Shown: piece after piece, positions 33,909-45,008 of the stretch | Position numbering within the stretch: position 1 is the stretch's first letter | Layout of the letters: each line of letters begins with the position of its first letter | NCBI RefSeq assembly: GCF_024757985.1 | Contig: NZ_CP103289.1 | Location: forward strand, 1,860,001-1,924,000 | Direction: 5' to 3' | DNA from: Cellulomonas sp. NS3 | Lineage (GTDB): Bacteria > Actinomycetota > Actinomycetes > Actinomycetales > Cellulomonadaceae | Length of the DNA: 64,000 bases | Program-made: the position numbers and the translations under genes | The notes under the pieces: model-generated | The model's input: only the letters and a program-made list of their open reading frames with translations | Databases searched by the model: none | What the model was told of the DNA's origin: nothing

Positions 33909-34364
33909 ATGGCTGACCACGGTCGCGCGAGGAAGCTCGCGGAGCGCATCCAGCAGATCGTCGCGCAGATGATCGACACGCGGATCAAGGACCCGCGTCT
34001 CGGGTTCGCCACGATCACCGACGTGCGCATGACCGGCGACCTCCAGCACGCCGACGTGTTCTACACGGTGCTCGGCGACGACGAGGCGCGTGCGGGGACG
34101 GCTGCGGCGCTCGAGAGCGCCAAGGGGCTCATCCGCTCCGAGGTCGGCAAGCAGACCGGGATCCGGCTCACGCCGACGCTCGACTTCCACCTCGACGCGG
34201 TGCCGGAGACGGCGGCGCACCTCGAGGCGGCGCTGCTCGAGGCCGCCCGCCGGGACGCCGAGGTCGCCGCGCTCGCCGCATCGGCCCGGTACGCGGGCGA
34301 GCCGGACCCGTACCGCAAGCCGGTCGAGGACGAGGGCGAGGACGCGGCGGACGACGTCCGCTGA
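33909..34364 (+). CDS. rbfA: Ribosome-binding factor A
   Basis: A 151-residue 30S maturation factor with a KH-like fold. Family text: HGRARKLAERIQQIVAQMI near the start, DPRLGFATITDVRMTGDLQH, and RLTPTLDFHLDAVPETAAHL. The last 30 residues form an acidic tail. ATG 33909 has AAAGGCGGAGATGTC just upstream. A strong bidirectional hairpin separates it from the convergent sulfur operon. Confidence 0.96.
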   Translation: MADHGRARKLAERIQQIVAQMIDTRIKDPRLGFATITDVRMTGDLQHADVFYTVLGDDEARAGTAAALESAKGLIRSEVGKQTGIRLTPTLDFHLDAVPETAAHLEAALLEAARRDAEVAALAASARYAGEPDPYRKPVEDEGEDAADDVR

Positions 34365-34379
34365 CCCGACGCGCGCACG

Positions 34380-34418
34380 ACGACGCCCGTGCCCCTCACG
34401 CTGGGGCACGGGCGTCGT
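34380..34418. terminator. Bidirectional terminator between rbfA and the sulfur operon
   Basis: A perfect 16-bp stem (34380-34395 with 34403-34418, 7-nt loop) lies in the 69-nt space between two convergent stops. It can serve both transcripts. Confidence 0.75.
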
Positions 34419-34433
34419 GGCGTCCGGGGGATG

Positions 34434-35009
34434 TCAGATCGACGGCACGAGCGACTCGTCCCGGCGCCGCTCCGACAAGAACGGCAGCGCCCGGGCGAGC
34501 GCCTTGTCGATGCGGGAGTCGAGCTCGGCGCCCGTCACCTGGTAGCTCGTGAACTCGCTGTCGTGCGCGTAGATCGCGAGCGGCAGCGTCTCGGCCTGGA
34601 AGAAGCCAAACAGCGGCCGGAACTGGTGCTCGAGGGCCAGGGTGTGCCGCTCGGAGCCGCCGGTCGCGACGAGCAGGACCGGGGTCCCGGCGAGCGCGGT
34701 CGGGGCCAGCAGGTCGAACACGTGCTTGAACAGGCCCGTGTAGGAGCCTTTGTAGATCGGGCTCGCCGCGACGACCAGGTCCGCCGCGGCGATCTCGGCG
34801 AGCGAGCGGGCGATGGGCGAGCCCGGGTCGCCGTACGTGTCGGTGAAGAACGGCACGAGGTCGGTCACGTGGAGGGTGGTGGCGTCGAGCGGCAGGTGCC
34901 GGCCGAGGCGCTCGACGATCTCGGCGACGAGCGCCGCGGTCTTGGACGGGACGCTCGGGCTGCCGTTGACGGCGACGACCTTGAGCGGGGTCTCGGTGCT
35001 GCGGGTCAT
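34434..35009 (-). CDS. NAD(P)H-dependent FMN reductase (SsuE/MsuE type)
   Basis: A 191-residue flavodoxin-fold reductase. VVAVNGSPSVPSKTAALV forms the FMN phosphate loop, and AASPIYKGSYTGLFKHVFDL is the typical SsuE/MsuE segment. It should supply reduced FMN to the flavin monooxygenase encoded just upstream in the same operon, so that sulfonates or related organosulfur compounds can be cleaved to sulfite. Start ATG 35009 follows GAGAGGACC. It is the last gene of the reverse-strand operon, ending at a strong hairpin. Confidence 0.9.
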   Translation of the reverse strand: MTRSTETPLKVVAVNGSPSVPSKTAALVAEIVERLGRHLPLDATTLHVTDLVPFFTDTYGDPGSPIARSLAEIAAADLVVAASPIYKGSYTGLFKHVFDLLAPTALAGTPVLLVATGGSERHTLALEHQFRPLFGFFQAETLPLAIYAHDSEFTSYQVTGAELDSRIDKALARALPFLSERRRDESLVPSI

Positions 35010-35035
35010 GAGGGGTCCTCTCGGGGTCGGGCGGG

Positions 35036-36409
35036 TCAGACGCCGGCCAGGGCGGGCTCGGCCTCGGGAGCCGTCGCGTACCGGTTCACGGGCCGGTCGA
35101 GCCCGAGGTGGTCGCGCAGGGTGGTGCCCGTGTACCCCTCGCGGAACAGCCCGCGCGCCCGCAGGAGCGGCACGACGTGCTCGGTGAACGCCTCGATGCC
35201 GCCGGGCAGGAACGGCGGCATGACGTTGAAGCCGTCCGCGGCGCCGTGCGTGAACCACTCGGTGATCGTGTCGGCGACCTGCTCGGGCGTGCCGGCCACG
35301 ACGCGGTGCCCGCGGGCTCCCGCGAGGCGGTGCAGCAGCTCGCGCAGGGTCGGCTGCTCGCGGCGCACGATGCCCGCGACGACCTGCCGGCGCGAGCGGT
35401 TGTTCTCGGTCACGTCGCCCGCGTCGGCGAACACGTCGAGCGGGACTGGCCGGTCGAGGTCCGCGACGTCGAACGTCGCCTCGGCGAGCGTCGCGAGCTG
35501 GCGCAGGCCGTACTCGGGCACCGTGAGCTCGTTGAACTCGCGCTCGAGCGCGCGGGCCTCCGCCTCGGTCCCGCCCAGGAAGGGGCTGATCCCCGGGAGG
35601 ATCTTGACCTGGTCCGGGCGGCGACCGTAGCGCTCGACGCCGGCCTTGATGTCGGCGTAGAACGCCTGTGCGTCGCTGAGCTGCTGGTGCGCCGTGAAGA
35701 TCGCCTCGGCGTGCCGGCTCGCGAAGGCGCGGCCCGCGTTGGACGCCCCGGCCTGGACGAGCACCGGGTGGCCCTGCGGCGGGCGCGGGGCGTTGAGCGC
35801 CCCCGCGACGCGCAGGTGCTCGCCGCGGAACGCCGCCGGGTGGATGCGGGAGGGGTCGGCGAACCGGCCCGTCGCGCGGTCCGCGAGCACCGCGTCGTCC
35901 TGCCAGCTGTCCCACAGTCGCGTGGCGACCTCGACGAACTCGCCGGCGCGCGCGTACCGCTCGCTCGGGTCGGGGTGCTCGTCGAGCCCGAAGTTCGGGG
36001 CGGCGGCGGACGCCGCGGTCGTCACGATGTTCCAGCCGGCCCGGCCGCCGCTCAGGTGGTCGAGCGTCGCGAACAGGCGAGCGAGGTTGTACGGGTCGTA
36101 GAAGGTGGTCGACGCGGTCGCGATGAGCCCGATACGGGTCGTGACGGCGGCGACCGATGCGAGGGTCAGGATCGGCTCGAGGTGGGCCGCGCTGTTGAAC
36201 TCGATGCCGGGGCTGAGCACCGGGCCGTCGGCGAAGAAGATGGCGTCGAACGCGGCACGCTCGGCGTGCTGGGCGAGCTCGTGGTGGTAGCCGGCGGTGA
36301 ACAGGCGGTCGACCGGGGTCGACGGGTGGCGCCAGGCGGCCTCGTGGTGGCCGACGCCGTTGATGAACAGGTTGAGGCTGAGCTGCCGGCGTGCGGGCTG
36401 GTCGGACAT
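35036..36409 (-). CDS. LLM-class flavin-dependent monooxygenase (NtaA/SnaA/DszA-like)
   Basis: A 457-residue bacterial-luciferase-like two-component monooxygenase. RQLSLNLFINGVGHHEAAWR at the N-terminus, AAFDAIFFADGP, and HLSGGRAGWNIVTTA are typical of the NtaA/SnaA/DszA branch, whose members use FMNH2 to oxidise chelators, sulfones or alkyl sulfur compounds. Placement between a sulfonate-type ABC transporter and an FMN reductase argues for organosulfur desulfurisation; the substrate cannot be fixed from sequence. ATG 36409 is used; 26 nt separate it from the reductase gene. Confidence 0.9.
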   Translation of the reverse strand: MSDQPARRQLSLNLFINGVGHHEAAWRHPSTPVDRLFTAGYHHELAQHAERAAFDAIFFADGPVLSPGIEFNSAAHLEPILTLASVAAVTTRIGLIATASTTFYDPYNLARLFATLDHLSGGRAGWNIVTTAASAAAPNFGLDEHPDPSERYARAGEFVEVATRLWDSWQDDAVLADRATGRFADPSRIHPAAFRGEHLRVAGALNAPRPPQGHPVLVQAGASNAGRAFASRHAEAIFTAHQQLSDAQAFYADIKAGVERYGRRPDQVKILPGISPFLGGTEAEARALEREFNELTVPEYGLRQLATLAEATFDVADLDRPVPLDVFADAGDVTENNRSRRQVVAGIVRREQPTLRELLHRLAGARGHRVVAGTPEQVADTITEWFTHGAADGFNVMPPFLPGGIEAFTEHVVPLLRARGLFREGYTGTTLRDHLGLDRPVNRYATAPEAEPALAGV

Positions 36410-36441
36410 GGTGGACCTCGCGATCGGTGGAGGGGAGAGGG

Positions 36442-37518
36442 TCAGGAGGCGTCCACGGGCTCGCCGTCGGGTCCGCTGTCCGGCTCGTAGGTGCCGTTGG
36501 CGTACGGGTTGTACTCGTTGCTGTAGACGTCGTCCGCGGTGAAGCGGCCCTTCTCGAGCTCGCCGTTGCGGACGAGCCAGTCGATCCACGTCGAGACCTC
36601 GCGCTCCTCGATGACGCCGCCGGGCGTGGAGACGCCCACCGACTTCCAGAAGGGCACGAGCTCCGGGGTCTCGCCGCGGTCGCGGCCCTCGATGATCTGC
36701 GTGTACCGCGCGTGCACCTCCTCGACGGGGGTGACCTGCGTCCAGCGGATCGCGCGGGCGATGCCCTGCACGTAGTCGGCGACGGCCTCGGGGTTCTCCT
36801 CGATGAAGTCGTCACGGAAGATGTACGACCCGTAGCTGAACTCGCCGAAGAGCTCGACCTCGGAGAACAGCAGGCGCAGCCCGCCGGGCTCGAGGGCCTT
36901 GTCCTGGAAGACCGAGCTGATCGCGACGACGTCGACCTGGCCCTCGCGCAGGACCTGCTCCGCGTTGACGGGCGGGACGACCGTCAGCTCGACCTGGGCG
37001 ATCTCGTCGGCGTCGAGCCCCTCGCGGGCGAGCCACTCGCGGATGACGAACTCGCTCTGCGCGCCGAGGGTGTTGATCCCGATCTTCTTGCCGATGAGGT
37101 CCCGCGCCCCGGCGACGGGAGAGCCCTCGAGCGTGTAGAAGCCGCCGAAGGCCTTGGTGTCGGAGCCGTAGTACGAGATGACGGACGTGACCTTCGCGCC
37201 CGACGACCGGAGCTTGACGATCGCGCCGTTGAACGCGCCGCCGACGTCGGTGGCGCCCGTCGCCGCGGACTGGATGCTCTGCGGCCCGCCGGTCGAGTTG
37301 CCGACCCACTCGAGCCGGACCTTCTCGAAGTAGCCGAGGTCGTCGGCCAGCTCGGGGAGCGTGACCTGACCGGCCGAGCCGTCGTAGCGGATCGTCGTCG
37401 TGCCGTCGGCGTCGACCGTCGCGGCGTCGGCAGCCCCCGAGCACGCGGCGAGCGTGAGGACGAGCGCTCCTGCGGGAACGGCGGAGGCCGCGGCGGACAG
37501 ACGTGAGGACAAGGACAT
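36442..37518 (-). CDS. ABC transporter substrate-binding lipoprotein (sulfonate/nitrate/taurine type)
   Basis: A 358-residue extracellular binding protein. The signal peptide ends at lipobox LAAC (Cys26). The mature part begins with RYDGSAGQVTLPELADDLGYF and includes KKIGINTLGAQSEFVIREWL and ENPEAVADYVQGIARAIRW, the SsuA/NMT1-like fold. It should deliver an alkyl sulfonate or related anion to the permease encoded just upstream. ATG 37518 has TGGAG eight bases upstream. The 100-nt gap to the permease gene has no clear feature. Confidence 0.9.
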   Translation of the reverse strand: MSLSSRLSAAASAVPAGALVLTLAACSGAADAATVDADGTTTIRYDGSAGQVTLPELADDLGYFEKVRLEWVGNSTGGPQSIQSAATGATDVGGAFNGAIVKLRSSGAKVTSVISYYGSDTKAFGGFYTLEGSPVAGARDLIGKKIGINTLGAQSEFVIREWLAREGLDADEIAQVELTVVPPVNAEQVLREGQVDVVAISSVFQDKALEPGGLRLLFSEVELFGEFSYGSYIFRDDFIEENPEAVADYVQGIARAIRWTQVTPVEEVHARYTQIIEGRDRGETPELVPFWKSVGVSTPGGVIEEREVSTWIDWLVRNGELEKGRFTADDVYSNEYNPYANGTYEPDSGPDGEPVDAS

Positions 37519-37618
37519 GAGAATGCTCCAGGGAGGTGTTTTCGGGGTCGACGAAAGGGCCGACGCCGTGCTGCGGACGAGCCGGTGGACGCGTGGGGAA
37601 ATGGCGGGGCGGGAGCGT

Positions 37619-38539
37619 TCAGGAGGACGCGGTGCGCCAGCGCGAGAAATGCCGTTCGAGGGTGAGGAGCACGCCGTTGACGCTCACGCCGACGAGCGCG
37701 ATCGCGATGATTCCGGCGTACATCTTCTCGATCTGGAAGTTGAACTGCGCGTACGTGATCAGGTAGCCGAGACCGGCCTTCGCCCCGACCATCTCGGCGG
37801 CGATCAGCACGAGGATCGACGACGCGCCGGCCATGCGGACCCCGGTGAACACCGTCGGGACCGCGGCGGGGAGCACGACCTTCTGTAACAGCCGCAACGA
37901 CGACAGCCCGAGCGAGCGGGCCGACTTCACGAGCAGCGGGTCGACCGAGCGCACCGCCGAGATGGTGGTGAGCAGGACGGGGAAGGTGCACGCGTAGACG
38001 ACGAGCGCGATCTTCGAGGTCTCACCGATGCCGAGGATGAGGATGAACACCGGCAGCAGCGCGAGCGCGGCCGTGTTCCGGAAGAGCTCGAGGAACGGGT
38101 TGAGGACGTCGGAGACGCGCCCGTACCAGCCGATCGCGACGCCGAGCGGGATCGCGGCCAGCACCGCGATCGCGAAGCCGGTGCCCGCGCGGCTCAGGCT
38201 CGCACCCAGGTGCAGGGCGAGCTCGCCGCTCGAGACGAGGGTGCCGAAGGCGCCGAGCACGCGGCTCAGCGGCGGGAGGAACACCGCGTCGACGAGCCCG
38301 ACGCGGGGTGCGACCTCCCAGAGCGCGAGGAACAGGACGAGGACGATCGAGGCCCGCAGCGCTCGTGCGGCGTGGGCGCGCACACGCCGGGAGAGCGGGG
38401 GAGTCGCGTCGCGGTCCGCGGCGAGCGCGGGCCGGCGCCCGAGCGTGGGCGGGTCCGCGAACGCGACGGTGTCCTCGGCGACCGGGACGGCGAGGGGTGC
38501 GGTGCCCGGGTCGGTCCGGGGTGACAGGGTGCTAGGCAC
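37619..38539 (-). CDS. ABC transporter permease (SsuC/TauC-like)
   Basis: A 306-residue membrane protein with about six transmembrane segments after a 60-residue N-terminal tail rich in Pro/Ala/Thr. The coupling-loop signature EAA-like segment SARSLGLSSLRLLQKVVLPA is clear and contacts the ATPase. It forms the channel of the sulfonate-type importer. GTG 38539 overlaps the end of the ATPase gene by 8 bp, so the two are translationally coupled. Confidence 0.92.
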   Translation of the reverse strand: MPSTLSPRTDPGTAPLAVPVAEDTVAFADPPTLGRRPALAADRDATPPLSRRVRAHAARALRASIVLVLFLALWEVAPRVGLVDAVFLPPLSRVLGAFGTLVSSGELALHLGASLSRAGTGFAIAVLAAIPLGVAIGWYGRVSDVLNPFLELFRNTAALALLPVFILILGIGETSKIALVVYACTFPVLLTTISAVRSVDPLLVKSARSLGLSSLRLLQKVVLPAAVPTVFTGVRMAGASSILVLIAAEMVGAKAGLGYLITYAQFNFQIEKMYAGIIAIALVGVSVNGVLLTLERHFSRWRTASS

Positions 38540-39386
38540 GGGCGGGCTCCAGCGTGGCGTGCAGGGGCAGGAGGTCGGTCGCGGCGTCGTCGGCGTCCGC
38601 GGTCGGGCTGTGCAGCTCGGTCCAGACCTGGTGCCGCAGGCGCCCGAACTCGGGGTCGGAGCGGATGTCGTCGGACCGGCCGCGGTCCAGGTGGACGTCG
38701 ATCACGGTGCGCAGGCGGCCGGGGTGCGGGCTCATCACCGCCACGCGCTGGCCCAGATAGAGGGCCTCGTCCATCCCGTGCGTGATGAAGACGATGGTGG
38801 TCCCGGTCGCGCGCCAGATGCGCAGGAGCTCGTCCTGCAGCGTCTCGCGGGTCTGGGCGTCGAGCGCCGCGAACGGCTCGTCCATGAGGAGCACCTCCGG
38901 CTCGAACGCGAGGGCCCGGGCGATCGCGACGCGCTGCTTCATCCCGCCGGACAGCTCGTGCGGGTAGCGCTGCTCGAAGCCGCTGAGGCCCACGAGGTCG
39001 AGGTAGCGTGCGGAGATCTCCGCACGCCGTGCCTTGCTGAGCCCCTTGGCCTCGAGGCCGAGCTCGACGTTCGCCCGCGCCGTCCGCCAGGGCAGCAGCG
39101 CGTACTGCTGGAACACGACGCCCCGGTCCAGACCGGGGCCGGTGAGCGGCTGGCCGTCGAGCAGGATCGCGCCCGACGACGGCTGCGTGAGGCCCGCGAG
39201 CAGGTCGAGCAGCGTCGACTTGCCGCATCCCGAGGGCCCGACGACGGTCAGCAGCTGCCCCGCGGGGACGTCGAGCGTGAAGTCGTCGAGCGCGGTGAAC
39301 AGCGTGCGGGCGCCGCGTCCGCGGGTGTCGTCGCGGACCGTGAAGTCCTTGTGGACGTGGTCGAACCTGAGCTTGGGCGTGGGCAT
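38532..39386 (-). CDS. ABC transporter ATP-binding protein (SsuB/TauB-like)
   Basis: A 284-residue ATPase, first gene of the sulfur operon. Walker A GPSGCGKST is at 50-58, the Q-loop follows in VVFQQYALLPW, the signature is LSGGMKQR, Walker B is VLLMDEPFAALD, and the switch His is in IVFITHGMDEA. A 45-residue C-terminal tail is poorly conserved. ATG 39386 is preceded by a small hairpin containing the ribosome-binding site. The 316 nt upstream on this strand separate it from a leader peptide ORF. Confidence 0.93.
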   Translation of the reverse strand: MPTPKLRFDHVHKDFTVRDDTRGRGARTLFTALDDFTLDVPAGQLLTVVGPSGCGKSTLLDLLAGLTQPSSGAILLDGQPLTGPGLDRGVVFQQYALLPWRTARANVELGLEAKGLSKARRAEISARYLDLVGLSGFEQRYPHELSGGMKQRVAIARALAFEPEVLLMDEPFAALDAQTRETLQDELLRIWRATGTTIVFITHGMDEALYLGQRVAVMSPHPGRLRTVIDVHLDRGRSDDIRSDPEFGRLRHQVWTELHSPTADADDAATDLLPLHATLEPARA

Positions 39387-39702
39387 GACCTGCCTTTCCG
39401 GGCAGGGGTGCGCGGGAGCAGGGCGGGCGGGGTGGGACACCGGCGAGACCACCGGTCCGGTGAGCAGCGCCGCGGGAACGGACGGCCCACCGACCGCGGG
39501 TGCACGGGCGCTCCCGGTCCGTCCGGACGCGTGGAGCGCGGTGGGCGCACGGGCCGTCCGTCGTGGAGCGGTGGGGAGCGGTCGTTGCGGGACCGTCGGC
39601 GGTCAGCCGGTGCGCGGCGAACGGGTCCCGACGTCGGGACGGAGGCTCAGCGGCGGCTGGACGCCCGGGTCGCGCGGTGGTGCGCCGGGCGTGGTGCGGT
39701 GA
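39387..39702 (-). promoter_or_regulatory. Leader region between leader peptide and ABC operon
   Basis: No gene is seen in these 316 nt. At the operon-proximal end (39389-39406) the reverse strand reads CCTGCC-CGGAAA-GGCAGG, a hairpin that holds the GGAAAGG ribosome-binding site partly in its loop, two bases before the ATG. The rest is GC-rich with several short inverted repeats. Given the leader peptide upstream, this is the likely attenuation segment. Confidence 0.5.
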
Positions 39703-39825
39703 CTACCGACAGAGCCGGCTGGCGACGCGCATGAGGTCGACGGCGCGCTGGGACGTGAGGTGGACCGGCAGGTGCCCGGACGGGCGACCCTCCGTGACCT
39801 CGCGCAGTGCGGCCTCGGTGAACAT
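39703..39825 (-). CDS. Putative sulfur-operon leader peptide (40 aa, ends VDLMRVASRLCR)
   Basis: A 40-codon ORF starting at ATG 39825: MFTEAALREV and ending QRAVDLMRVASRLCR-stop. The C-terminal VDLxRVASxxCR pattern is that of short putative leader peptides seen upstream of sulfur and cysteine genes in Actinobacteria. The single Cys codon is the second last before the stop, where slowed translation at low cysteine would stall the ribosome at the end of the ORF. TAGTTT (39833-39838) ends seven bases before the ATG, so the message is probably leaderless. The ABC operon lies 316 nt downstream. Confidence 0.72.
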   Translation of the reverse strand: MFTEAALREVTEGRPSGHLPVHLTSQRAVDLMRVASRLCR

Positions 39826-39832
39826 GTCGGGA

Positions 39833-39862
39833 AAACTAGTGACACGGTCCGCGCCGGCGCAA
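39833..39862 (-). promoter_or_regulatory. Promoter of the leader peptide and sulfur operon
   Basis: On the reverse strand, -35-like TTGCGC (39857-39862), an 18-bp spacer, and -10-like TAGTTT (39833-39838) are seen. The start point would fall at the leader-peptide ATG. Confidence 0.6.
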
Positions 39863-40204
39863 TACGCATCCATGGGGTGAGACGACCGCGTCGCCCGGAC
39901 TCGTGGACCATGCATTTCCGGGCCGTCGCGCGCCGCAGGAATCCCTGGGCGGGAACGGCCCGCGCGAAGAATGCTGCTGCTCCCACCGGGTGCGTCGCGG
40001 GACGTCGGAAATCCTGGCGCACAGGATTGCGTGGAACCGCGGAGCGGGGTCCCTTCTCGCTCCGGACCCGCCGACGGTCGTCGGGCGCGCGCCGGACGCG
40101 GGGTGCGGGCGAGCGGCACAGGGGAGCTCTCCACCCCTGCCGCGTCTGGGTCCGCCCTGTTAGCGTGGTTCACGCACATCGTCCCGGGCTGCTCCACATC
40201 GTCG
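39863..40204. other. Divergent intergenic region, sulfur operon / cellulase
   Basis: No gene is supported in this stretch. It carries the control regions for two accessory units reading apart, and its middle part (about 39895-40035) is less GC-rich than the surroundings. For the cellulase, TAGCGT at 40161-40166 could be a -10, giving a leader of about 50 nt. Confidence 0.5.
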
Positions 40205-40218
40205 TGAGAGCGCTCCCA
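40205..40218 (+). promoter_or_regulatory. CelR/CebR-like operator at the cellulase start
   Basis: TGAGAGCGCTCCCA differs at one base from the palindrome TGGGAGCGCTCCCA bound by the LacI-family regulators CelR (Thermobifida) and CebR (Streptomyces), which release DNA in the presence of cellobiose. It lies between the putative -10 and the coding start and touches the ATG at 40218. Confidence 0.85.
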
Positions 40219-43200
40219 TGAACGGAGACACCGTGGTTTCCTTCCCCGATGCGAGCGCCCGTGCCTCGGGCGCCGCTGCCGCCACCGTGGCGGTCCTCGC
40301 CCTCGCGGCCGCCGTCAGCCCGGTCGCCTTCGCCGGCCCCGTGACCGAGGTCCACGACTTCGCGACCGGACCGCAGGGCTGGTTCTCCTACCCACCCGAG
40401 GCGGTGACCACGTCGGCGGAGACCGGCGAGCTGTGCTCCGCCGTCGGCGCCCACACGGGCAACCCCTGGGACGTCGCGGTCCAGCACGACGCCGTGACGT
40501 TCGACCGCGACGCCACGTACGTCGTGGAGTTCGACGCGCACGCGAGCCGCGCCGTGACCGTTCCCGTGCAGGGCGGCCCCGGCTACCCGGCGGCGTTCGG
40601 GGGCTCGGTGGAGCTCGACGGGTCGGCGACGCCGGAGCACGTCGAGCTCACGTTCTCGCCGTCGGCATGGCCCACCGGTGAGGGCAGCCCGGTCGCCGAC
40701 GACTGGACCACGACCACCGGCAACGTCTCGTTCCAGCTCGGCAACCAGGGCGAGCCGTACGAGCTGTGCATCGACGACCTCTCGATCACGCCGCTCGGCA
40801 CCAACCTGATCCCGAACGGCGACTTCGCGAGCGGCACGACCGACCCCTGGTTCGTCGCCGGCGACCTCGGCACCGCGGACGTGTCCAGCGGCGCGCTCGT
40901 CGTCCCCGTGCCCGCCGGCTCGGGCATCTACGCTGGCGTCGGGTTCAACGGGCTCGCGATCGAGGAGGGGACCAGCTACACGCTGACCTTCGACGTCAGC
41001 GCGTCCGAGGAGCGCACGATCCGCGCGATCGTGGGCGAGAACGGGGGGAGCTACGGCACCGTCCTGGACAGGACCGTCCCGGTGACGACCGAACCCACGA
41101 CCGTCTCCCACACGTTCACCGCGACCGACTCCTACCCGGCGACGACGACCCCGGGCGGGCCGTTCGAGGGTCAGCTCGCGTTCCAGGTCGGCGGGCGCGG
41201 GGGCGACTGGACCTTCACGCTCGACGACGTCTCGCTGGTCGAGAGCCTGACGCCGCCCCCGCCCTACGAGCCCGAGACGGGACCGCGCGTCCGGGTGAAC
41301 CAGGTCGGGTACCTGCCGGCCGGCCCCAAGCAGGCGACGCTCGTGACCGATGCGACCGAGCCCGTCGTCTGGCAGGTCCGCACCGTGTCGGGCGGCGTGC
41401 TCGCCGAGGGGGACACGGTTCCCGCCGGCGTCGAGCCGAGCTCGGGCCTGAACGTGCACACGATCGACTTCGGCGCGCTCACCACCGAGCACGAGGGTCT
41501 CGTCCTGACGGCCGACGGCGAGACCAGCCGGCCGTTCGACATCGACCCCGACCTCTACCAGCAGCTCCGGTACGACGCGCTGAACTTCTTCTACCTCATG
41601 CGCAGCGGCGTCGAGATCGACGCCTCGATCAACGCCGACTACGCGCGGCCGGCCGGGCACGTCGACGTCGCGCCCAACCAGGGCGACGGCGCGGTCACGT
41701 GCCTCACGGCGGCCGACGAGGGGGCCGGCTGGGCCTACGGCGACTGGACGTGCCCCGAGGGGTACGCGCTCGACGTACGCGGCGGCTGGTACGACGCGGG
41801 CGACCACGGCAAGTACGTCGTGAACGGCGGCATCGCCGCGGCGCAGCTCCTGAGCACCTACGAGCGCAGCCTGCACGCCGGCACGGCCGAGCCCGGTGCG
41901 CTCGCGGACGGGACGCTCGCCGTCCCGGAGAGCGCGAACGGCGTCCCGGACGTGCTGGACGAGGCGCGGTGGGAGCTCGAGTTCCTGCTCAGCATGCAGG
42001 TGCCCGCGGACGGCGGGGAGTACGCCGGCATGGCGCACCACAAGATCCACGACGTGGGGTGGACGGGCCTGCCGCTGCTGCCGTCGCAGGACCCGCAGGA
42101 GCGCCGGCTCGCCCGGCCCTCGACCGCGGCGACGCTCAACCTGGCCGCCGCGGCCGCGCAGGGCGCCCGCCTCTTCGCCGACCACGACCCCGACTTCGCG
42201 GCCGAGCTCCTCGACGCCGCACGCACCGCCTGGGACGCCGCGCAGGCTCACCCGGCGGTGCTCGCCCCCGACGCCGCGGGCAACAACGGCGGCGGCGCGT
42301 ACAGCGACGGCACCGTCACGGACGAGTTCTACTGGGCCGCCGCGGAGCTGTTCCTGACGACGGGCGAGGACGCGTTCGCCGAGCACGTGCTCGCGAGCCC
42401 GCACGCGACGGGCGACGTCTTCGGGCCCGGCGGCATGAACTGGGGGAGCACCGCGGGCCTCGGGCGTCTCGACCTGGCGACCGTCCCGAACGACCTCCCA
42501 TCCCGCGACGCCATCCGGCAGTCGGTGATCGACGCCGCGGACGCGTACGTCGCCACGCAGGACGCGCAGGCCTGGGGGAGCACGTACGTGCGACCCGACG
42601 GCCTGTACGAGTGGGGCTCGAACAGCATGGTGCTCAACACCACGGTCGTGGTCGCGACCGCGTTCGACCTCACGGGCGACGAGACGTACCGGCGCTCGGC
42701 GCTCGAGGCGGTCGACTACCTGCTGGGCCGCAACGCGCTCAACATGTCGTACGTCTCCGGCTACGGCGAGGTCAGTGCGCAGCACCAGCACAACCGCTGG
42801 TTCCCGCTCTCGGTCCCGGGCGTGTCCCCGGACGGCTCGCTCGCGGGCGGCCCGAACTCGACGACCGGCACGTGGGACCCGACGATGCAGGCGGCGTTCG
42901 CCGGCGGCTGCGCGCCGTCGATGTGCTACCTCGACGAGCTGGGGTCGTGGGCGTCCAACGAGGTCGCGATCAACTGGAACTCCGTGCTCTCGTGGGTCGC
43001 GTCCTTCGTCGCCGACCAGGGTGACGGGTCCGCCGACGCGAGCACGCCCGTGCGGGTCACGCAGCAGCCGGCCGACGCGACCGTCGCGCCGGGCGCGAGC
43101 GCGACGTTCACCGCCGCAGCCGACGGCGTCCCGGCGCCGACCGTGCGGTGGCAGGTGCAGCGGCCCGGTGCCCGGTGGGCCGACGTCCCGGGGGCGACGA

Positions 43201-43598
43201 GCACGACGCTCACCGTGACGGCCGCGCTCGCCGACCACGGCACGCTCTACCGCGCCGTCTTCACCAACGCGTCCGGCTCCGAGGCCACCGACGTCGCCCG
43301 CCTCGCGGTCGTCGCCACCGAGCGGCTCGCGGTGCGGCTCTCGTCGCCCGCACTGCGGGCGGGTGGGCACGTGACCGTGGCGGTGCGGGGTGCGGCTGCG
43401 CGGGAGGTCGTGCAGGTCCGGCTCGGTGACGAGCTCCTCGAGACGCGGGCAGTGCGCAAGGACGGCACGGTGTCGATCAGCGTGCACGTGCCGCGCCACA
43501 CCGACCCCGGCGCGTACACCGTGACGGTGCGGGGGACGTCGTCCGGTCGCGAGGGTTCCGCGACGCTGCAGGTGCTGCCGGCGCCGCGTCGCTCCTGA
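40218..43598 (+). CDS. Secreted modular endoglucanase, GH9 (CenC-like)
   Basis: A 1126-residue cellulase with a signal peptide (cleavage after about residue 40, PVAFA), two CBM4-type jelly-roll domains (about 41-195 and 196-350) for amorphous cellulose, a CelD-type Ig-like domain (about 355-445), the GH9 (alpha/alpha)6 barrel (about 450-930), and two C-terminal Ig-like domains. Catalytic Asp526 and Asp529 are in WYDAGDHGKY; the acid Glu915 is in SNEVAINWN. This is the layout of Cellulomonas fimi CenC. ATG 40218 is listed; GTG 40233 after CGGAGAC is an equally good start. Confidence 0.94.
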   Translation: MNGDTVVSFPDASARASGAAAATVAVLALAAAVSPVAFAGPVTEVHDFATGPQGWFSYPPEAVTTSAETGELCSAVGAHTGNPWDVAVQHDAVTFDRDATYVVEFDAHASRAVTVPVQGGPGYPAAFGGSVELDGSATPEHVELTFSPSAWPTGEGSPVADDWTTTTGNVSFQLGNQGEPYELCIDDLSITPLGTNLIPNGDFASGTTDPWFVAGDLGTADVSSGALVVPVPAGSGIYAGVGFNGLAIEEGTSYTLTFDVSASEERTIRAIVGENGGSYGTVLDRTVPVTTEPTTVSHTFTATDSYPATTTPGGPFEGQLAFQVGGRGGDWTFTLDDVSLVESLTPPPPYEPETGPRVRVNQVGYLPAGPKQATLVTDATEPVVWQVRTVSGGVLAEGDTVPAGVEPSSGLNVHTIDFGALTTEHEGLVLTADGETSRPFDIDPDLYQQLRYDALNFFYLMRSGVEIDASINADYARPAGHVDVAPNQGDGAVTCLTAADEGAGWAYGDWTCPEGYALDVRGGWYDAGDHGKYVVNGGIAAAQLLSTYERSLHAGTAEPGALADGTLAVPESANGVPDVLDEARWELEFLLSMQVPADGGEYAGMAHHKIHDVGWTGLPLLPSQDPQERRLARPSTAATLNLAAAAAQGARLFADHDPDFAAELLDAARTAWDAAQAHPAVLAPDAAGNNGGGAYSDGTVTDEFYWAAAELFLTTGEDAFAEHVLASPHATGDVFGPGGMNWGSTAGLGRLDLATVPNDLPSRDAIRQSVIDAADAYVATQDAQAWGSTYVRPDGLYEWGSNSMVLNTTVVVATAFDLTGDETYRRSALEAVDYLLGRNALNMSYVSGYGEVSAQHQHNRWFPLSVPGVSPDGSLAGGPNSTTGTWDPTMQAAFAGGCAPSMCYLDELGSWASNEVAINWNSVLSWVASFVADQGDGSADASTPVRVTQQPADATVAPGASATFTAAADGVPAPTVRWQVQRPGARWADVPGATSTTLTVTAALADHGTLYRAVFTNASGSEATDVARLAVVATERLAVRLSSPALRAGGHVTVAVRGAAAREVVQVRLGDELLETRAVRKDGTVSISVHVPRHTDPGAYTVTVRGTSSGREGSATLQVLPAPRRS

Positions 43599-43604
43599 CG
43601 TCGG

Positions 43605-43640
43605 GTGCGTGGGACCCGGCTCCGGGCCGGTCCCACGCAC
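43605..43640 (+). terminator. Terminator of the GH9 gene
   Basis: A 12-bp perfect stem extended by three pairs past a one-base bulge (43605-43620 with 43626-43640) begins seven bases after the stop. There is no T-tract. Confidence 0.65.
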
Positions 43641-43904
43641 CTCGCGGGGCGGGGCGGGGGTCGCCCGGCGTGCGTCCTCGCACCCTCGCGCGGCGACGGC
43701 GTCCGACGTGCGCTCTCGCACCTCGCGCGGGCTGCGCGGTCCGGCGCGCTCCGGCCGGACCGTATCTGCGTCTGCCCACGCGTCGTGCAGGCGCAGAGTC
43801 GGAACATCGGCGCCCACAGGTCCGCACGTGCGGATCAGTCGGCAGGTCGTGACCGCGGTTCGGTGGCGTCCGTCGGGCATGAGCCGGCGGATAACCTGCC
43901 GGGC
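43641..43904. other. Intergenic region GH9-truB
   Basis: No gene is supported. It contains two near-copies of TCGCACC(C)TCGCGCGG (near 43677 and 43714), a perfect 14-bp palindrome TCCGCACGTGCGGA at 43821-43834, and the truB -10-like TAACCT at 43892-43897, which ends seven bases before the truB ATG. Confidence 0.6.
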
Positions 43905-45008
43905 ATGACCTCCACCGACGACGCACCACGGACCCCGCGGCAGCGCCCGGCGCCCGGCCCGCGCCGGCCCACCGCCCCGGACGGGCTCGTCGTCGTCGAC
44001 AAGCCCTCCGAGATGACGAGCCACGACGTCGTCGCCCGCATGCGCCGGATCGCCGGCACGCGCAAGGTCGGTCACGCCGGGACGCTCGACCCGATGGCGA
44101 CCGGCGTGCTCGTCGTCGGCGTGGGGCGCGCGACGAGGTTGCTCACGTACGTCGTCGGCGCCGACAAGGAGTACCGCGCGACGATCAGGCTCGGCGTCCG
44201 CACGACGACCGACGACGCCGAGGGCGAGGTCGTCGCCGTCGCCGACGCCTCGGGCGTGACGCGCGACGACCTCTCCGGGCCCGTCGCCGCCCTCACCGGG
44301 CGCATCGAGCAGGTCCCGAGCTCCGTGAGCGCGATCAAGGTCGACGGCCAGCGGGCGTACGCACGCGTCCGTGCCGGTGAGGACGTCGCGCTCGCCGCGC
44401 GCCCGGTCACCGTGAGCCGGTTCGACGTGCACGACGTCCGGGGCGCCGGGGAGCCCACCGCGGACGCGGGTGTACCCGTGCCTGCCGGTGCGCTCGACGT
44501 CGACGTCACGGTCGTGTGCTCGTCGGGCACGTACGTCCGCGCGCTCGCACGCGACCTCGGCGCGGCGCTCGGCGTCGGCGGGCACCTGACCGCCCTGCGC
44601 CGTACCCGCGTCGGCGGCTACGACCTCGCCGGGGCCCGGACGCTCGACGAGCTGCTCGCGTGGCCCGAGGACGTCCCCCTCGACGTCCTCCCGCTCGCGG
44701 ACGCCGCCCGGGCGACCTTCCCGGTCCGCGAAGTCACGGCCCAGGAGGCGGCGGCGCTGTCGTACGGGAAGCGCATCGCGGCGGACCCGGACGCCGGCGA
44801 GCCGGGCACCGCGACGAGCGGCACCGTGACGGGCGACGCCACGACGGACCGCGCCGCGACGGACAGCGCCGAGACGGCCGGCACACCCACCGACAGCGTG
44901 CGGGCCGGCAGCCCGGTCGCGGCGATCTCGCCCGACGGGACGCTCGTCGCGCTGCTCGAGCAGCGTGGGGAGCACGCGGCGCCCGTCCTCGTCTTCGCGC
45001 CCGCCTGA
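43905..45008 (+). CDS. truB: tRNA pseudouridine(55) synthase TruB, with Thr/Ala-rich insert
   Basis: A 367-residue enzyme forming pseudouridine 55 in the T-loop of tRNAs. The catalytic Asp is in GHAGTLDPMATG; motifs DGLVVVDKPSEMTSHDVV and SSGTYVRALARDLG are intact. Residues about 293-337 are a Thr/Ala/Asp-rich low-complexity insert between SYGKRIA and VAAISPDGTLVALLE, within the C-terminal PUA-like domain, where other TruB proteins are only a few residues long. ATG 43905 is preceded by TAACCT, consistent with leaderless expression. Confidence 0.95.
   Translation: MTSTDDAPRTPRQRPAPGPRRPTAPDGLVVVDKPSEMTSHDVVARMRRIAGTRKVGHAGTLDPMATGVLVVGVGRATRLLTYVVGADKEYRATIRLGVRTTTDDAEGEVVAVADASGVTRDDLSGPVAALTGRIEQVPSSVSAIKVDGQRAYARVRAGEDVALAARPVTVSRFDVHDVRGAGEPTADAGVPVPAGALDVDVTVVCSSGTYVRALARDLGAALGVGGHLTALRRTRVGGYDLAGARTLDELLAWPEDVPLDVLPLADAARATFPVREVTAQEAAALSYGKRIAADPDAGEPGTATSGTVTGDATTDRAATDSAETAGTPTDSVRAGSPVAAISPDGTLVALLEQRGEHAAPVLVFAPA

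Follow-up and report, generated by a model that had tools for sequence, protein, structure and literature searches.

How an operon for the import and oxidation of organosulfur compounds is controlled in Cellulomonas sp. NS3 is the question raised by five genes on the minus strand of a 64,000-nucleotide (nt) stretch of its genome (hereafter the window; all coordinates refer to it). A 40-codon open reading frame (ORF) lies upstream of the operon and is separated from it by a 316-nt spacer. We lean towards the view that this ORF encodes a leader peptide and that the leader is a cysteine-responsive attenuator acting through Rho. In the wider peptide family the single UGU codon found at a fixed distance from a conserved aspartate probably reports cysteine shortage to the cell.

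The leader ORF and its promoter

The leader ORF, MFTEAALREVTEGRPSGHLPVHLTSQRAVDLMRVASRLCR (39703-39825, minus strand), contains one Cys codon in all and no Cys run, and its C-terminus reads VDLMRVASRLCR. The -10 hexamer TAGTTT (39833-39838, minus strand), which fits TANNNT, is located 7 nt 5' of the ATG at 39825, the layout of a leaderless start, and lies 18 bp from a -35-like hexamer, TTGCGC (39857-39862, minus strand). The -35 hexamer is weak and a simple sigma-70 scan called no promoter at the leader. Promoter, ORF, 316-nt gap and five-gene operon had all been listed in an earlier sequence-only reading of the window; they are read directly from the nucleotide sequence, and the gene identities given for the operon hold.

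Comparison within the genus, made with Cellulomonas cellasea, revealed that the leader is kept, 3 of 123 nt being different, and that both promoter hexamers are covered by a stretch identical in the two strains, while the distal spacer and the DNA 5' of the promoter are clearly diverged and contain indels. On this alignment promoter and leader stand out as an island of conservation. Among the 86 distinct family leaders described below, 33 have an in-frame start 5-8 nt past a TANNNT, a layout comparable to that of the window, and 53 are without it; this spacing was found for 33 of 291 in-frame candidate starts and for 2 of 228 out-of-frame ones. Seven family leaders of the Ms5788A (polycysteine) type have a leaderless start. 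The excess of in-frame starts, the conservation island and the family match support the leaderless-type leader peptide that the sequence-only reading had put forward.

The leader family and its conserved core

The window peptide matched two NCBIfam profiles, NF042933 (Ms5788A leader; E 7.8e-6, 25.5 bits, cut-off 45) and NF042934 (cis_reg_atten, "putative leader peptide"; E 5e-4, 19.6 bits, cut-off 27). The alignment to NF042934 spans profile positions 1-19 of 19 with the Cys in register. When 150 of 203 first-look candidates from the genome were scored against this profile, the window peptide was the top and the sole full-length one among 14 matches with E up to 10. Judged by these scores it is more than a chance frame and of a kind that NCBI has already modelled. 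At E up to 0.02, NF042934 had matches in at least 43 of 396 genomes surveyed across the phylum and in at least 89 of 396 across the order. Both counts are lower bounds, since no more than 22 candidates were scored in each genome, and both include some weak matches by chance. The core motif is far more widespread than had been implied earlier.

The family sample consisted of the window leader, eight leaders from operon homologues and 120 fetched places. Removal of identical 20-residue cores reduced 121 rows to 86 distinct leaders. Rows were obtained through a filter that required the Asp and accepted Cys at D+8, D+9 or D+10, positions being counted from that Asp (116 of 121), or by hand (5: four Oerskovia-type rows and the window). 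Since 60 of the fetched places were the best-scoring ones in the survey, one family (f6) dominates the sample, which is not phylogenetically independent. Nine of the 120 fetched places gave no filter match (L110, L116-L119, L158, L171, L194 and L199); L116-L119 resemble chance frames, while Cys stands at D+9 in L110 (TGT; Glu in place of Asp), L194 (TGT) and L199 (TGC). A held-out set consisted of 39 places, of which 37 were scored (L290, whose core reads VDY, was unscored and L287 was a duplicate). A third set held 20 places with an early-ending profile match, among which L295, L298 and L301 resemble chance frames.

Alignment of the 86 distinct leaders gave the motif LxxRx[HA][VI]DLxRxx[SG]xxC. 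Its D, required by the filter, is invariant; L at D-7 is present in 79 leaders, R at D-4 and L at D+1 in 83 each and R at D+3 in 85, and 80 leaders have S or G at D+6. In the window leader this core, from Leu (D-7) to Cys (D+9), occupies 39709-39759 (minus strand). The distance from start codon to core varies among leaders and 0-10 residues follow the Cys, while the Cys itself lies at D+9 in all 121 pooled rows. Synonymous-codon entropy of the conserved Arg was 2.23 at D-4 and 1.90 at D+3, compared with a background of 1.88; these codons vary about as freely as background, and the residues are therefore conserved as amino acids. A palindromic DNA operator around GTCGAC, the Val-Asp codons, was considered but not retained, given the variation in synonymous codons. 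A Cys codon just before the stop, which had been singled out in the sequence-only reading, is thus not the conserved feature; its register to the upstream DLxR is. The single Cys codon that it also pointed to is common, exactly one Cys being present from D+5 onwards in 55 of 86 leaders. As a separate observation, the conserved Ser at D+6 is encoded by AGC in 48 of 61 cases (background 24%) and, in the held-out set, in 24 of 31.

That the ORF is a chance frame, or encodes a small protein acting in trans, would be compatible with its shortness and with an N-terminal half that is not conserved outside C. cellasea among the compared leaders. The family match, the conservation island and the sulfur context of the leaders argue against both, and the fixed C-terminal register at the Cys codon fits a role in cis rather than in trans; we regard this explanation as hardly credible.

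Codon usage at the conserved cysteine

The Cys codon of the window leader, TGT (39709-39711, minus strand), is proposed as the sensor on account of its register and of codon choice. Cys at D+9 is encoded by TGT in 83 of the 86 leaders, compared with 15% in genes of the same loci; in the window, 40 genes that a simple script called use TGT for 2 of their 71 Cys codons. Within the same 86 leaders the D+2 Cys is TGC in 21 of 25 cases and Cys at all positions other than D+9 is TGC in 65 of 100. All 39 leaders with exactly one Cys from D-10 to the stop use TGT for it. The prediction for the held-out set was fixed beforehand, and there D+9 Cys was TGT in 32 of 33, D+2 Cys was TGC in 11 of 11 and C exceeded G after the stop codon in 33 of 33. 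In the third set D+9 Cys was TGT in 14 of 14.

The 46 tRNA matches in the genome included a single tRNA-Cys gene, with anticodon GCA, so that UGU would be read by G:U wobble. The preference for UGU is not general to Cys-containing upstream ORFs (uORFs), because UGC dominates in the cysS uORFs of Rhodobacterales, according to the accessible text of PMC8632094. Neither the UGU rule nor the class of leaders with a stop at D+9 was reported in the literature searched, which included the accessible parts of PMC9094748 and PMC8079986 and few subscription papers.

Leaders without cysteine at D+9

In six leaders a stop codon occupies D+9 itself: TAG in L162, L293 and L296, and TGA in L163, L164 and L278. 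L162-L164 owe their place in the sample solely to a neighbouring leader and themselves end at D+9. A gene for an SDF-type symporter follows L278, L293 and L296; the gene after L163 gave a weak GST_C_2 match alone and the genes after L162 and L164 gave no match. Selenocysteine at these codons was dropped as an explanation, since both TGA and TAG occur. Elsewhere D+9 is Pro (CCA) in L260, Ser (TCA) in L285 and Ala in L314; the protein start after L260 showed a weak partial match to family-5 binding proteins and that after L285 none. Cys is found solely at D+5 in L158, at D+5 and D+7 in L171 and at D+10 (TGT) in L297. In the held-out set 4 of 37 scored leaders had no Cys at D+9. The stop class speaks for the register, and against a Cys codon that is indispensable.

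These leaders bear on the possibility that the peptide arrests the ribosome on a small sulfur metabolite, not on uncharged tRNA-Cys, the D+9 codon merely setting the register. Conservation of the core at the amino-acid level and the six stops at D+9 are in keeping with it, as is the leader found before cysteine dioxygenase (see below), but the near invariance of Cys with UGU is against it, and both the poly-Cys relatives and the unrelated UGU-bearing candidates in front of this operon elsewhere speak for the codon. We consider a metabolite sensor of this kind quite improbable.

The spacer and RNA structure

The spacer of the window (39387-39702, minus strand; 316 nt) is 48% C and 31% G and, from its composition, with no conserved terminator seen, is a candidate Rho-loading (rut) region. 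Across the 86 leaders the composition changes right at the leader stop codon, C rising from 0.33 to 0.49 and G falling from 0.32 to 0.26. Over the 110 nt after the stop, (C-G)/(C+G) averaged 0.25 compared with 0.05 in 260 control upstream regions, whose transcription status is not known (p 4e-26), and C exceeded G in all but one of the 86 leaders (in every one over 100 nt) compared with 62% of controls. A rho gene is present in the genome.

A classical terminator/antiterminator attenuator was weighed against these data. Foldings with strong local hairpins are possible for the window spacer and for the leaders of several orthologue sets, but the window spacer folds no better than its shuffles (z -0.65), the mean folding z of spacers over the leaders is -0.5, the long hairpin of the window spacer is not kept in C. 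cellasea and T-runs are almost absent, TTTT occurring within 200 nt of the leader stop in 3 of 86 leaders. No terminator hairpin with U-tract was found in the window spacer, and a scan of 38800-40300 against Rfam found nothing at E up to 1. Such an attenuator is very unlikely here.

A second alternative is translation attenuation, in which leader RNA would pair with the Shine-Dalgarno region of the operon's first gene, and stalling of a ribosome on the Cys codon would open the pairing. The accessible text of PMC13236596 describes translation attenuation systems and states that cysteine genes of M. smegmatis have been shown to be so regulated, and in the window a small hairpin, CTGCC-CGGAAA-GGCAG, lies over the Shine-Dalgarno sequence. 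Against this, that hairpin is weakened in C. cellasea, the window spacer is as long as 316 nt, and over 74 leaders the leader end paired with its own downstream start no better than in permutations, 15 of 30 of which paired at least as well. We regard translation attenuation as unlikely. For pairing of the leader end with its own spacer, 6 of 30 permutations were at least as good in the same 74 leaders. RNA pairing as a general mechanism was rejected after leader-start pairing, leader-spacer pairing, UGU-versus-UGC folding and spacer z-scores had given nothing general.

Analysis of eight orthologue sets with RNAalifold revealed local leader hairpins, the strongest before cysteine dioxygenase. 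The column-shuffle z-scores are inflated because of contiguous conservation, and a synonymous-recoding test was relied on instead; by this test leader hairpins were slightly stronger than recoded ones (mean z -0.35, standard error 0.13).

Downstream genes and homologous operons

The first downstream genes of 84 leaders were classified, with starts called by a simple script and without a matched control gene set. Among them were 14 for SDF symporters, whose substrate is not known, 7-8 for sulfonate-type and 4 for family-5 binding proteins, 9 for sulfite/nitrite reductase-type proteins, 7 each for cysteine synthase-type enzymes and DUF4395 proteins, 6 for LLM monooxygenases, 4 for cysteine dioxygenase and 3 for rhodanese. 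Many are sulfur genes, which bears out the statement that peptides of this type precede sulfur genes in actinobacteria. The leader before cysteine dioxygenase, at L106, L107, L125 and L126, reads ..RRVHMDL[VL]RYAGCVCRPS[CR].

Homologues of the window operon were compared at 44 distinct loci, two duplicates being set aside; at L061 only 366 nt lie upstream. A core-type leader was found before 8 (C. cellasea, five Oerskovia-type and two Nocardia). Another candidate leader with a Cys UGU codon was seen before 14 (six Rhodococcus with MFQC[FC][GS]CRS, five Cellulomonadaceae of CCR type and three single cases), all picked by eye at loci that also hold leaderless-type ORFs without TGT; the Rhodococcus candidate has no TANNNT at leaderless distance. 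The CCR-type peptides, at L079, L080, L081, L083 and L085, are unrelated, leaderless-type and Cys-rich at the end, and the one tested (L083) had no NCBIfam match. Conservation of the peptide upstream of homologous operons, proposed as a check on the sequence-only reading, was seen at 8 of 44 loci; 14 others have the different Cys-UGU candidate and 22 showed none. Since the core-type peptide precedes only these 8, the operon is not tied to it. In a comparison of gene order at 24 loci, ATPase-permease-substrate-binding protein-LLM monooxygenase-FMN reductase was found in the window and C. cellasea, and elsewhere the order is mostly substrate-binding protein-ATPase-permease-LLM monooxygenase; the leader is at the 5' end of the operon despite the differing order. 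Core-type or candidate leaders with a Cys UGU codon recur before this operon, although the peptide differs from one group to another.

The proposed mechanism

In the mechanism that we favour, a leaderless mRNA would begin at the ATG of the peptide, and the ribosome would make the nascent chain LxxRx[HA][VI]DLxRxx[SG]xx and then hold one UGU in its A site, nine codons past the Asp, to be decoded by tRNA-Cys (GCA) through G:U wobble. If Cys-tRNA were scarce, the ribosome would wait at the UGU, aided by the nascent chain in the exit tunnel, and would cover the start of the C-rich spacer; Rho loading would be blocked and the sulfur-scavenging operon transcribed. With plentiful cysteine the ribosome would complete the peptide and depart, and Rho would end transcription within the spacer. 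In contrast to the metabolite sensor, charged tRNA-Cys would here be the signal, as it was in the sequence-only reading. The comparisons show a core kept at the amino-acid level, its register, the preference for UGU, a spacer rich in C and the sulfur genes nearby; that the ORF is translated, that ribosomes stall on it, and the parts played by charged tRNA-Cys, the nascent chain and Rho are inferences.

A more specific version can be offered tentatively, with more doubt than confidence. The tunnel motif (Leu, Arg, Asp-Leu, Arg, Ser/Gly) may make the ribosome hypersensitive to what occupies the A site at D+9, most members of the family reading Cys-tRNA through the wobble-read UGU and others reading release through a stop, with the response coupled to Rho.

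Several observations weigh against the attenuator proposed for the window. The window peptide scores under both NCBIfam cut-offs, and at D-4 both it and its C. cellasea counterpart have Gln where 83 of 86 family leaders have Arg. Family members with a stop, Pro, Ser, Ala or displaced Cys at D+9 exist. The lean towards TGT extends beyond D+9, to 10 of 16 Cys codons at D+7 and 18 of 30 at D+10 to D+12, mostly in poly-Cys leaders, and the AGC bias of Ser D+6 has no explanation under the mechanism. The C-rich spacer is suggestive of a rut region and not proof of one, and the leader hairpins point to a possible RNA-level constraint. No Cys leader was seen before 22 of 44 operon homologues. Cysteine dioxygenase, a cysteine-destroying enzyme, is a poor fit to a switch turned on by starvation; the sign of regulation may be reversed before it.

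The operon genes and their neighbourhood

All five genes lie on the minus strand. They code for a TauB/SsuB-like ABC transporter ATPase (38532-39386, ATG at 39386), a TauC/SsuC-like ABC permease (37619-38539), an SsuA/NMT1-like substrate-binding lipoprotein (36442-37518), an FMN-dependent LLM monooxygenase of the NtaA/DmoA family (35036-36409) and an MsuE/SsuE-like NADPH:FMN reductase (34434-35009). The monooxygenase scored 536.8 bits with TIGR03860 (NtaA/DmoA), over the cut-off of 279.7; the reductase (202.6 bits with MsuE TIGR03566, cut-off 212.5) and the lipoprotein (69.4 bits with SsuA TIGR01728, cut-off 163.5) scored under theirs. The nearest solved structures of the monooxygenase are DszA, NtaA-type and MoxC/YtnJ proteins, and no single substrate is indicated.

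The genome is a single contig of 4.78 Mb, near to C. cellasea (binding protein 96% identical). The sulfur operon lies between rbfA and truB (33909-45008) together with a GH9 cellulase gene in divergent orientation (40218-43598), and at E 1e-40 the binding protein of the operon went undetected in 5 of 7 genomes from the genus. The region of operon and GH9 gene is likely an insertion into the infB-rbfA-truB cluster.

Relation to known systems and significance

The window peptide shares core and position with NF042934, which is an amino-acid profile and is therefore unable to carry the UGU rule. It shares the AVDLxRVA core and the register with the Ms5788A family (NF042933), the polycysteine leaders of mycobacteria, but has one Cys where those have a run; the Ms5788A-type member tested (L090) passes both NCBIfam cut-offs. 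Polycysteine leaders of mycobacteria are reportedly the subject of a paper by Canestrari et al. in 2020. The tnaC leader of E. coli senses free tryptophan at its stop codon. It works in a manner like that proposed here, a ribosome held by the nascent chain near the leader stop masking a Rho site.

As far as the accessible text goes, Seliverstov et al. 2005 (PMC1262725) found leader peptides without terminators before cys operons and proposed a tna-like Rho termination for the mycobacterial ones, a prediction that they rated as rather weak for want of conserved motifs. Their Cys leaders carry runs of Cys codons, and the C-rich onset was measured here over 86 leaders; these spacer numbers strengthen the Rho suggestion of PMC1262725. 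The cysS uORF uORFC-8-2 of Rhodobacterales is likewise a uORF with Cys codons, but, in the accessible part of PMC8632094, it has two tandem Cys codons with UGC dominant and a terminator-like stem with a U run, unlike the window leader. Cys leader peptides are also described in the accessible text of PMC4633059 besides that of PMC1262725, and with NCBI modelling this peptide type the term "undescribed system", used for the locus earlier, was too strong.

The mechanism of actinobacterial cysteine leaders was left open in 2005, in the accessible text of PMC1262725, when the peptides were found without terminators. The fixed register, the stop-codon subclass and a one-base prediction, that UGU to UGC weakens the switch, make it directly testable. 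If the mechanism holds, codon-supply sensing and nascent-chain arrest, which are usually kept apart, would be joined in one leader. Should the more tentative version be true, sulfur acquisition across Actinobacteria would be under the control of one motif, which a single-codon change could re-target in evolution. The leader family would also offer a route to sulfur-scavenging operons of unknown substrate, the operon of Cellulomonas sp. NS3 among them.

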